DNA of 48,160 nt from Elusimicrobiaceae bacterium (GTDB lineage Bacteria > Elusimicrobiota > Elusimicrobia > Elusimicrobiales > Elusimicrobiaceae): assembly GCA_016282685.1 (NCBI GenBank), contig JAEELM010000033.1, positions 1 through 48,160 of the forward strand. The letters run 5' to 3'. The notes below the pieces were generated by a model. The model searched no databases, had not been told where the DNA came from, and saw nothing but the letters and a program-made list of their open reading frames with translations. Position numbers and translations under genes: made by a program. Of this stretch, positions 51 to 3,143 are shown piece by piece; the stretch's first letter is position 1; each line of letters starts with the position of its first letter.

Positions 51-746
51 TTAAGGTTTGTAAATAAAGGATAACAGCATATTACGCTGGTGATCCCTCC
101 GCCAAGAAAAGAAATTTTCTTTATCGCAACAGGTGCAATCGTACGAGAAAAAACAACGCTCCGGCTCCATAGCAGCCTGCTCTAATTGCAAGCGGATGGC
201 AGCGTTTAAATCTACAAACAATTTTTCCTTCCGCTGGATAATTGTTTGCGGCGGGAATTGGCAAGCAGTATCTTGCTGTACTTCAAAACAGCAAGTTTGA
301 ATGTGAGGGCCGGCCCAGCAATACAGGGGTTGCCGGGTACAGGCTTGCAGGGCTTGTATCGTTTTTAAGGGTAATTGCTGAACTACACCCCGCCAACCGC
401 AATGAGATAGTGCCCATGCACTGCCATCTTGTGCCCAAACGAAAAAGGGAACACAATCGGCGGTGATAATCGTAGCTCCCCAGCCGGTTGGAGCGGGTGC
501 AAAAACCCAGCCGTCTGCATCTGTACACGGTTGATTTGAAAAAGAAGAACATTGGTCAGCCGAGGAAAATGAGAGCAGCACATCACTATGAATTTGGTGC
601 AAGTGAAGCATTCTTTGGGGGGGAATGCCCAACGGGGTTAATACGCGGGCCTGGTCGGCCGCTTCTTTAAGGGAACCTGCATGGCGGGAACACGTACCGC
701 CAATGAGCCCGGCCTGTAACAAAGCCGGTGGTGTAAAAATTTTCAT
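51..746 (-). CDS. pgeF: Peptidoglycan editing factor PgeF (YfiH/laccase-domain family)
   Basis: The 231-residue protein has the hallmarks of the YfiH/PgeF (formerly multicopper polyphenol oxidase) family: QIHSD at about 51-55, TADCVP at 95-100, HCGWRG at 115-120 and GPHI at 146-149. The expected metal-binding triad would be H53, C98 and H115. Family members are zinc-dependent enzymes that remove wrongly incorporated amino acids from muropeptide precursors; some also act on purine nucleosides. The ATG overlaps the murI stop codon in an ATGA arrangement (743-746), so the two genes are translationally coupled, and both serve cell-wall precursor quality. Length is normal for the family (about 230-250). 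The function is inferred from family motifs. Confidence 0.88.
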   Translation of the reverse strand: MKIFTPPALLQAGLIGGTCSRHAGSLKEAADQARVLTPLGIPPQRMLHLHQIHSDVLLSFSSADQCSSFSNQPCTDADGWVFAPAPTGWGATIITADCVPFFVWAQDGSAWALSHCGWRGVVQQLPLKTIQALQACTRQPLYCWAGPHIQTCCFEVQQDTACQFPPQTIIQRKEKLFVDLNAAIRLQLEQAAMEPERCFFSYDCTCCDKENFFSWRRDHQRNMLLSFIYKP

Positions 747-1543
747 ACGTTTAATTTTTTTAAGTGAACGGTTTGAATAGGGGCACTGAGTACTAATTTA
801 GCCAAACGCTTAAAGCGTGCGGGATCATCGCTGGCATAAAAACGGGCCGAACCGCGGCCGGTGGTTTGAGATTGCCCCAGCTTGGTTAACAAACGGTGTA
901 CCTCTTCAGCCAACGTATCCGACGGATCCACCAACGTGATATTCTCTCCTGCAATTTGCCGCAGTAACGGTTTCAAAATGGGGTAGTGGGTGCAACCTAA
1001 AATAATTGTGTCCACCCGCTTTTTTTGTAAAGGGGCCAGGTATTCCTGTGCAATTAATCGGGCGGCCGGTTTATGTGTCCAGTTTTCTTCTACTAACGGG
1101 ACAAAAAGCGGACAAGCTTTGGCAAAGAAACGGATATCTTTTCTTTTTTTCTTTAAAGCTTTTTCATAGGCACCGCTACGGACAGTCCCTTCTGTTCCTA
1201 AAAGGGCAATGCGTCCGCTACGGGTCAGGCGAATGGCTTTTTGGGCCCCGGGTTCAATTACACCTAAGACGGGGACATGGCATTTTTTCTGTAAAGTGGG
1301 CAGAGCTTGTGCGGAAGCCGTATTACAAGCCACAATAATTAATTTGGCATCTTGTTGTTCCAAAAACTGTGCAATGGCAACGGATAATTTGGTAACCGTT
1401 TGACGGGATTTTGCCCCATAGGGAACATTGGCACTGTCACCGAAATAAATAAAATGTTCATGCGGTAATTTTTTGCGCAAGGCTTTGAGAACGGTTAACC
1501 CTCCCAAGCCGGAGTCAAAAATTCCAATCGGACGCGTTTTCAT
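743..1543 (-). CDS. murI: Glutamate racemase
   Basis: This 266-residue enzyme makes D-glutamate for peptidoglycan in the cytoplasm. Its motifs are typical: GIFDSGLGGL at 7-16, ACNTAS with catalytic Cys73, and GCTHYP with catalytic Cys184. The full-length form matches the usual 255-285 residues. It is the first gene of a two-gene unit with pgeF, whose start overlaps its stop. A TATAAT hexamer (minus strand, 1550-1555) lies only 6 nt before the ATG, so the transcript may be leaderless. The divergent kinase gene lies 66 nt away and has the same arrangement. Confidence 0.95.
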   Translation of the reverse strand: MKTRPIGIFDSGLGGLTVLKALRKKLPHEHFIYFGDSANVPYGAKSRQTVTKLSVAIAQFLEQQDAKLIIVACNTASAQALPTLQKKCHVPVLGVIEPGAQKAIRLTRSGRIALLGTEGTVRSGAYEKALKKKRKDIRFFAKACPLFVPLVEENWTHKPAARLIAQEYLAPLQKKRVDTIILGCTHYPILKPLLRQIAGENITLVDPSDTLAEEVHRLLTKLGQSQTTGRGSARFYASDDPARFKRLAKLVLSAPIQTVHLKKLNV

Positions 1544-1609: not shown

Positions 1610-3106
1610 ATGTTACGTAAAGGGATATTGGTATTTTTGAGTGTTTTTTTATTGGCGGGGACAGGTGCCTGGGCACAAGATGCCTCTGCCTTAATTGTAG
1701 GTGGGAATTTTTCCACTTACACCAATACATCTTCTCAAACACGTGCTTTTGACCAAGCAGCGCGTGATGCTGAAGTTGCCCAGTTGCGTGCCCAACTGCA
1801 AGAGGGTAAATACCAAGAAGTAATTAACCGCATCAACACATTGTACTCCAATAATTTCTTGGATGACCGTTTCTATCTGCTTTTAGCCATTGCGTATGAC
1901 GGCTTAGAACAAACAGAAGATGTTATTTACTCGTCGGGGCAAGCCATTGCGGTATCTCCACAAGATGCCCGCCCCTATTTGTTGCGGGCAGGAGCATACA
2001 TCAAACAGGGCAATTATGAACGGGCCCAGCTTGACTTGGATACAGCCTTGAAGTTAAATCCATCTTCCTTTATGGGCCAATCCTTGCAAAAAGAATTAAA
2101 TGAAAAAAATCCTGCGGCAGCCCGGCCGTTAGCGTCTGATAAGAAAGACCCGGCCAAGACAAATAGTCAGCGTCCGCGTTGGATGTATATTTATTTTGTA
2201 GCGATATTTTTAGCGGTTTTATTGTTTATTTATTGCCGTTACGAAGACCTTTTCCGTCAACCTCAAAATGCTTATTCGCGTAAGGAAGTGGAGATTAAAG
2301 AACAGTACGATTTTATTCGCCAAATCGGGGAAGGCGGCATGGGGCAAGTATATGAAGCCTATGACAAAGTTCTTAAACGCAAAGTGGCTATCAAACGAGT
2401 ACGCCCTGAATTGGTGCGCAGTTCTTATATTCGTGAACAATTTCTTTCCGAAGCCCGCACGCTGGCGTTGTTGCGCCACCCGGATATCGTGGAAGTCTAT
2501 ACTGTTATAGAATCTGAAAATTCCCTTTATTTAGTGTTTGAGTATGTTGACGGACAAACCTTGGAAACACGCTTGGATATTGACGGCCGGATCTTGTTTT
2601 CACAGGCTAAAGAAATTTTCAAATACGTGTGTCAGGGATTGGCGTATGCTCACTCTCAAGACATTATTCACTGCGATTTGAAACCGGGTAACATTATGAT
2701 TTTAGAGAACAACAGAGCCAAGGTAATGGATTTCGGTGTTGCCCGCAAAGCAGTTGATACGCAAACCGGTGCCCGTACCGTAGCCGGAACGCCCGCCTAC
2801 ATGGCCCCCGAACAACAAAAGGGATATATGCGCAAACAATCCGACGTTTATTCCTTGGCCCTTTGTTTTTACGAGGCGTTGGTGGGGCAGGTACCTTGGA
2901 CGGTAAAAGGATTTGATATTGCAAACAAAAAAATTGTGCCGCCTTCTAAGTTGGCTCCATTTATCCCGCCGGCGGTAGATGCGTTGATTGAGAATGCTCT
3001 TAAAGAGGATCCGAACGAGCGTACCCAATCGGTTACAGAGTTTTGGAATCAACTGGAGGCCATTGAACCTATACACGAAGATGATCCTTCCAAAACACAT
3101 TACTAA
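1610..3106 (+). CDS. Membrane Ser/Thr protein kinase with exported N-terminal TPR domain
   Basis: The 498-residue protein starts with a signal peptide (1-22, ending GAWAQ), followed by an extracytoplasmic TPR-like region (about 45-165), a transmembrane helix (about 191-211) and a cytoplasmic Hanks-type kinase domain (about 232-490). Kinase motifs are the GEGGMGQVY glycine loop, VAIK with Lys262, HCDLKPGN with catalytic Asp356, DFG with Asp374, and GTPAYMAPEQ. The residue before the catalytic Asp is Cys355 rather than Arg, which makes it a non-RD kinase. The order is the reverse of PknB-type kinases, whose kinase domain is N-terminal and sensor domain C-terminal. A plausible role is sensing envelope conditions through the TPR domain; ligand and substrates are unknown. 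It appears monocistronic, ending at a strong terminator. Confidence 0.9.
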   Translation: MLRKGILVFLSVFLLAGTGAWAQDASALIVGGNFSTYTNTSSQTRAFDQAARDAEVAQLRAQLQEGKYQEVINRINTLYSNNFLDDRFYLLLAIAYDGLEQTEDVIYSSGQAIAVSPQDARPYLLRAGAYIKQGNYERAQLDLDTALKLNPSSFMGQSLQKELNEKNPAAARPLASDKKDPAKTNSQRPRWMYIYFVAIFLAVLLFIYCRYEDLFRQPQNAYSRKEVEIKEQYDFIRQIGEGGMGQVYEAYDKVLKRKVAIKRVRPELVRSSYIREQFLSEARTLALLRHPDIVEVYTVIESENSLYLVFEYVDGQTLETRLDIDGRILFSQAKEIFKYVCQGLAYAHSQDIIHCDLKPGNIMILENNRAKVMDFGVARKAVDTQTGARTVAGTPAYMAPEQQKGYMRKQSDVYSLALCFYEALVGQVPWTVKGFDIANKKIVPPSKLAPFIPPAVDALIENALKEDPNERTQSVTEFWNQLEAIEPIHEDDPSKTHY

Positions 3107-3107
3107 A

Positions 3108-3143
3108 TTAAAAAGGAGTGCTAAAAACACTCCTTTTTAATTT
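3108..3143 (+). terminator. Intrinsic terminator after the kinase gene
   Basis: The arms AAAAAGGAGTG and CACTCCTTTTT flank a short CTAAAAA loop and are followed by a T-rich run. Because the stem is flanked by A and T runs it could also act on the convergent nucleoside phosphorylase transcript. Confidence 0.85.

Follow-up and report, generated by a model that had tools for sequence, protein, structure and literature searches.

A predicted periplasm-sensing receptor kinase of Elusimicrobiaceae with a conserved HCD catalytic loop

How a bacterial receptor kinase is controlled once the arginine of its HRD catalytic triad is gone is the question raised by a gene near the start of a 48,160-nucleotide stretch of DNA from an Elusimicrobiaceae bacterium (contig JAEELM010000033.1), here called the window. 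In RD kinases this arginine holds the phosphorylated residue of the activation loop. An earlier note on this DNA described a kinase with the domain order opposite to that of PknB and with a cysteine, Cys355, in place of the arginine, and it suggested a sensing domain outside the cell, independence from loop phosphorylation and possibly redox sensitivity. The genome from which the window derives has a size of 1.42 Mb and is 91% complete. The features of the gene and its product were as follows.

1610..3106, + strand: whole gene, predicted to encode a receptor kinase of the order signal peptide, TPR part, transmembrane helix, kinase (498 aa, ATG start)
1610..1675, + strand: predicted signal peptide, residues 1-22 (cleavage after Ala-Trp-Ala by eye; hydropathy 5-23; model helix 2-20)
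1688..1714, + strand: conserved mature N-terminal motif ALIVGGNFS, residues 27-35 (low model confidence, pLDDT < 50 at residues 22-43)
1754..2107, + strand: TPR-like helical bundle, residues 49-166, predicted periplasmic (seven main helices; model and Pfam TPR matches)
2177..2239, + strand: transmembrane helix, residues 190-210 (hydropathy and model)
2303..3064, + strand: Hanks-type kinase domain, residues 232-485, predicted cytoplasmic (Pfam, structure matches and model)
2669..2677, + strand: HCD catalytic-loop triad, residues 354-356 (Cys355 codon TGC at 2672-2674)

The architecture was assessed with Pfam, hydropathy and an AlphaFold2 model. Two hydrophobic segments (residues 5-23 and 191-209) were detected by hydropathy, and the model (mean pLDDT 86) contains a helix at 2-20, seven TPR-like helices within 49-166, a helix at 190-210 and a kinase fold; since its pTM is only 0.59, the domains are firm and their mutual arrangement is not. 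In the window protein the TPR repeats score marginally, staying below cut-off when the whole protein was scanned, with TPR_1 and TPR_8 rising barely over it when residues 1-189 were scanned alone. In the 60-row alignment A1, TPR_1 and TPR_2 each matched 56 rows at E ≤ 0.01, the remaining four rows being kinase stretches only. Among the 78 short-form orthologues described below, mean hydropathy of the transmembrane helix was at least 1.6 in all 78, an AxA motif was present at the N-terminus of 76 by a loose rule, and the N-termini of four fell under the hydropathy mark used. Net charge averages +2.3 on either side of the helix in these orthologues, so that the positive-inside rule is of no help for the orientation. 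Because the TPR part is separated from an ATP-dependent kinase by a single membrane helix, the two should be on opposite sides of the membrane, and the TPR part is predicted to be outside, as had been proposed. The order signal peptide, TPR, transmembrane helix and kinase is thus right as a prediction, and it is the opposite of that of PknB.

Membership in the Hanks-type Ser/Thr kinases was assigned by the Pkinase domain (PF00069, residues 233-473, E 9.6e-55, 186 bits against a cut-off of 31.7) and by the key catalytic residues, seven of which were checked (K262, E281, H354, D356, K358, N361 and D374) and found unchanged in 78/78 short-form orthologues. The best matches among solved structures, by sequence as well as by fold, were the kinase domains of PknA and PknB of M. 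tuberculosis. Residues 354-361 form the catalytic loop HCDLKPGN, and both the numbering of Cys355 and Asp356 and the HCD loop itself were thus described correctly in the earlier note. With Cys355 in the window protein and arginine in none of the 78 short-form orthologues, the group is classed as non-RD, defined by the lack of an Arg ahead of the catalytic Asp.

In order to see whether the cysteine is more than an accident of one genome, orthologues in the window genus were collected with the whole protein as query and without using HCD as a filter. Of the 61 genomes examined, 58 yielded a full-length orthologue, the window's own being one of these; the exceptions were a gene in two pieces (G041), a gene cut at a contig end (G058) and an 85% complete genome with the other kinase only (G012). 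All 58 carry Cys355. The family's other 24 genomes, whose genera are labelled g12 to g16 here, contained 20 short-form orthologues (2/3 genomes in g12, 17/18 in g15 and 1/1 in g16), 19 with HCD and one with HGD (G138, L240). Over the four genera, residue 355 is therefore Cys in 77/78 orthologues, Gly in 1/78 and Arg in 0/78. A chance mutation of the catalytic loop is ruled out by these counts. No evidential weight was given to the invariant HCD of alignment A1, because most loci in that alignment had been selected by their match to an HCD pattern.

Homologues with arginine at this place, for which the earlier note had asked as a possible refutation, do exist, and they lie outside the short-form clade, where they date the change instead of refuting it. 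The genera g13 and g14, with one genome each, have a longer homologue with HRD. In the sister family, 40 genomes were searched and the best matches of 38 were taken; after one of another type (L084, 445 aa) was set aside, 37 kinases were read, 36 with HRD and one with HCD. A tree of 88 kinase domains, including 12 of the 58 window-genus sequences, joined the short forms in one clade (support 0.994) with g13 and g14 as neighbours (support 0.993 with them), and the sister-family group had a support of only 0.632. Due to L084, L106, L107 and the second kinase of L089 also falling within the joint clade, strict orthology across short forms, g13, g14 and sister-family kinases is less than certain. 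Gene order could not be used for g13 and g14, whose neighbours were without match in the other loci compared (one of them is presumably RecN-like), and their orthology link therefore rests on the tree. Since HRD is found in g13, g14 and 36/37 sister-family kinases, the arginine was, most simply, lost once, in an ancestor of the short-form genera and before the four of them split. The one HCD kinase of the sister family (L078 in G092, a long form with the triad region at residues 664-671) has kept Glu at the activation-loop site nevertheless; as it sits inside the sister family in the tree, its arginine was lost independently.

What the loss means for control follows from the role of the arginine. 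Without it, the latch between arginine and phosphothreonine that orders the activation loop is not available, and activity should then depend on the state of assembly or ligand binding more than on loop phosphorylation. We regard it as fairly probable that the gene encodes a periplasm-sensing, non-RD type-I membrane receptor kinase controlled in this way. The signal peptide would send the N-terminus out, and the short TPR bundle in the periplasm would bind an envelope protein or peptide. The single transmembrane helix would pass the state of the TPR part on to the cytoplasmic kinase, most simply by the pairing of two chains, and the kinase should be active in principle, the seven catalytic residues checked being kept.

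Two positions of the activation loop bear on this proposal.

2744..2746, + strand: Arg379 (DFG+3), Lys or Arg in 58/58 orthologues of the window genus
2777..2779, + strand: Thr390, placed by its spacing from the P+1 Thr

We take residue 379 to be the site of PKA Lys189 and Thr390 to be, by spacing, the equivalent of PKA Thr197. Over the short-form clade, position 390 is Thr in 65, Pro in 5, Ser in 5 and Asn in 3 of the 78 proteins. In the window genus Thr390 is kept in 58/58, and Thr386, Arg389 and Thr394 are likewise invariant. In g15 (n=17) the residue is Pro in 5, Ser in 5, Thr in 4 and Asn in 3, so that Thr is lost in 13/17; Gln379 occurs in 10/17, and the proteins carrying it coincide fully with those in which position 390 is Pro (5) or Ser (5). 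Ser390 in g15 could still be phosphorylated. All 37 sister-family kinases carry Glu, a built-in acid, at position 390, and the two HRD homologues have Leu (g13) and Thr (g14). Leu390 in the HRD protein of g13 indicates that residues 355 and 390 are not strictly tied to each other.

These data allow a different reading, in which the protein is an ordinary kinase activated by autophosphorylation of Thr390, with Lys or Arg at position 379 and Arg389 replacing the lost HRD arginine. The retention of Thr390, Arg389 and a basic residue 379 in 58/58 orthologues of the genus speaks for it, and with the invariant Thr386 and Thr394 it suggests that a phosphorylated loop may still matter there. Pro or Asn at position 390 in 8/17 and Gln379 in 10/17 of the g15 proteins speak against it, because the orthologue group as a whole can do without the Thr390 route. 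This reading is possible but rather doubtful. The loop differences, namely Glu390 in the sister family and Pro or Ser390 with Gln379 in g15, support control without the arginine-phosphothreonine latch, and as far as the alignments indicate, the pocket changed further after the loss of the arginine in part of g15 and not in the window genus. The proposed independence from loop phosphorylation is supported in part: it fits the kinase group, with 13/17 g15 proteins lacking Thr390, whereas the window genus, with Thr390 and the basic residue 379 in 58/58, may still use phospho-Thr390.

It was also considered whether the protein is mainly a membrane scaffold with low or secondary kinase activity. 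The sole point in favour of this is that Arg355 is gone, so that activation by the standard scheme is weakened. Against it stand the seven catalytic residues checked, unchanged in 78/78 orthologues, and, within the genus, a kinase part that is conserved more (0.918) than the TPR part (0.758), and we consider this reading very improbable.

The cysteine itself could act as a redox switch, with a disulfide turning the kinase off, as suggested for the HCD cysteine of DYRK kinases. We take the position of the DYRK partner cysteine, from the DYRK loop motif, to be DFG+3, i.e. residue 379 here. Cys355 is fixed in 77/78 orthologues and Cys341 and Cys419 are fixed in 78/78, and in DYRK1A, according to the portion of the source available, Cys286 lies at 4.4 A from Cys312 (PMC3677093). 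At the presumed partner position, however, the short-form orthologues have K, R or Q in 78/78 and Cys in 0/78. The HRD homologues of g13 and g14 likewise have Cys341 and Cys419, which therefore did not arise together with Cys355; Cys292 is not conserved, the window protein having Asp there; and the lineage with Gly355 needs no thiol. Moreover, the record titles of several relatives name colon, rectum, rumen or feces as the source. Oxygen is scarce in colon, rectum and rumen, and Elusimicrobiaceae are known largely from animal guts. With no partner cysteine found that arose with Cys355, a DYRK-like switch was rejected, and redox sensing by Cys355 in general, as raised in the earlier note, appears very unlikely.

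For the receptor kinase set by assembly or ligand, the mature N-terminus offers a possible internal ligand. The N-terminal motif was recovered by a loose pattern in 73/78 short-form orthologues and is of the type APLxVGGNFS in the window genus and VxGxY in g15. The g14 protein also contains one internal copy of a PLxVGGNFS-type motif. To see whether the motif marks exported proteins in general, a corresponding DNA pattern was run over 10 genomes of the genus, where it matched 40 times (9 times in this kinase) compared with 28 times for its reverse; in six sister-family genomes the counts were 22 and 9. The motif may dock into the TPR groove, either of its own chain or of a second one. In an extended and admittedly speculative version, which we think improbable, the latch was dismantled stepwise (Arg355 in the ancestor, then residue 379 and Thr390 in part of g15), control moved outside the cell, and the N-terminal tail of the PLxVGGNFS type would serve as a built-in pseudo-ligand lying across its own TPR groove until pushed out by envelope peptides.

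The domain order had also been taken as remarkable in itself, which did not hold, as a transmembrane helix in front of a C-terminal kinase is common in this phylum. Long Elusimicrobiota proteins share the order signal peptide, TPR, transmembrane helix and C-terminal kinase with the window protein (L064-L101 without L084 in the sister family; L253/L264 in g13) and differ in their length, 800-923 aa in the sister family and 675 aa in g13, in having HRD (36/37 and g13) and, in the sister family, Glu390. The membrane segment preceded the kinase in the 37 sister-family proteins read, the best match per genome had 35-48% identity, and TPR matches were obtained in 11/11 of those scanned and in g13. 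The g14 homologue (L263, 870 aa, HRD) has the same order of transmembrane helix and kinase, and no TPR match was found in it. Among 28 more distant genomes sampled from the phylum, 25 had matches at E ≤ 1e-30, up to 32 per genome. Twenty loci were taken from this sample and 18 proteins were read, in 12 of which the locus end truncates the N-terminus; all 18 have membrane segments followed by a C-terminal kinase, 12 being of one type and the other six having an N-terminal part that is presumably CHASE2-like. Five genomes of other families of the class (G182, G184, G212, G213 and G227) each gave 22-32 receptor-kinase-like matches.

HCD-type loops were found in 87 of 340 genomes of the phylum, 82 of these among the 90 Elusimicrobiaceae, by a pattern that is blind to Ser coded by TCN and left G140 (g16) and G092 unmarked, both HCD by protein. 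In a scan of genome_contigs, which by its description covers 84,980 species, the exact loop HCDLKPGNIM occurred in 93 stretches; the pattern is narrow and counts only part of the HCD kinases. Scored against the window protein, 74 of the 93 belonged to the Elusimicrobiaceae family (at least 284 bits). The other 19 were, by title, from Lentisphaeria/Lentisphaerae, Victivallaceae, Verrucomicrobia, Phycisphaerae, Myxococcales, a cyanobacterial bin, Bryobacterales, Sphingobium and one further bin, and an HCD kinase frame was present in 18 of them. In the stretch from Sphingobium fluviale (L174), the DNA match to HCDLKPGNIM stood where no kinase frame was recognised. By hydropathy, a membrane segment before the kinase was seen in 0/18 of the non-family HCD frames, three of which have a cut N-terminus. 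HCD thus occurs elsewhere, but its combination with the present layout was not shown by the HCDLKPGNIM scan.

Comparison with known systems gave partial likeness to several. PASTA-type receptor kinases (PknB, PrkC, StkP, Stk1) share the Hanks fold, one transmembrane helix and an outer sensor, whereas in the window protein the kinase is C-terminal, the sensor is TPR instead of PASTA and the loop is HCD instead of HRD. Assignment to this type (PknB/Stk1) was rejected on the C-terminal kinase, a Pfam scan without a PASTA match and a score of 266 bits, below the cut-off of 450, with the NCBIfam PASTA-kinase model NF033483. PknS of Xanthomonas citri has a cytoplasmic kinase, a transmembrane helix and periplasmic TPRs, according to the available parts of its description (PMC13147305), and shares these with the topology predicted here; in PknS, on the same source, the kinase is N-terminal, the TPRs are C-terminal and the loop is H/YRDXKXXN. 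The excerpts at hand for PknG of Actinobacteria describe a kinase joined to TPR repeats, the only non-RD kinase among 13 in M. ulcerans (PMC4238996), with an activation loop that is open without phosphorylation in CgPknG (PMC8546545). In these excerpts PknG differs in TPRs C-terminal to the kinase, a rubredoxin-like domain in most members and a substrate with an FHA domain (PMC8546545, PMC4238996). The window protein was accordingly not assigned to PknG, as its TPR part is N-terminal and the transmembrane helix 190-210 lies between TPR and kinase. DYRK kinases share the cysteine in place of the HRD arginine, which in the section available was read as a sign that the primary site is dispensable; they are eukaryotic and have a possible partner cysteine at the start of the activation loop, which is absent in the window protein (PMC3677093). 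A DYRK-type HCD loop with partner cysteine was rejected on the K, R or Q at residue 379. No description of this protein was among the matches listed in the open-access literature, a scope outside which most subscription journals lie, and the parts available of three papers on bacterial kinase families (PMC1821047, PMC2877116, PMC6213207) and of one on non-RD kinases of Sulfolobus islandicus (PMC5682000) contain no mention of it.

The kinase appears as a modest but testable twist on a well-known type of receptor kinase, the activation arginine being gone in every short-form relative checked. It provides a natural experiment on how a receptor kinase of bacteria functions once the HRD arginine has gone; since one family contains both HRD and HCD homologues, each with the kinase placed C-terminally after a transmembrane helix, matched pairs are available for testing whether loop phosphorylation is needed. 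Additionally, it is one of only two Hanks kinases found in a small genome, with a possible link to envelope upkeep through its neighbours.

743..1543, - strand: murI (glutamate racemase), divergent neighbour, 66 bp away
51..746, - strand: pgeF-like gene adjoining murI (PF02578 over cut-off; TIGR00726 PgeF 104.9 bits, below the cut-off of 141)
3110..3138, + strand: inverted repeat directly after the stop codon, terminator-like (read by eye; not listed by the repeat scan)

The terminator-like repeat and the position of the next gene on the other strand suggest that the kinase gene is probably transcribed alone. The divergent pair of murI and the pgeF-like gene stands beside the kinase in 58/58 full-length loci of the window genus and in the one g16 locus. 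Nine g15 loci extend 2.6 kb or more upstream of the kinase; five of these have murI at a distance of 2.1-3.2 kb upstream, on the strand of the kinase, and in four it was not found upstream; in g12 there was none within 5 kb (L228) and none in L266. MurI and PgeF have peptidoglycan roles, which gives a hint, and only a hint, of a link between the kinase and envelope upkeep. Around the sister-family kinases no recurrent helpful neighbour was seen, many clusters resembling antisense frames, and no FHA gene was found in the host genome. The other Hanks kinase of that genome (L102, G000:C3) carries its HRD kinase at the N-terminus and many hydrophobic segments after it. The only match to the two phosphatase models tried (PP2C_2 and SpoIIE) adjoins this second kinase on C3.
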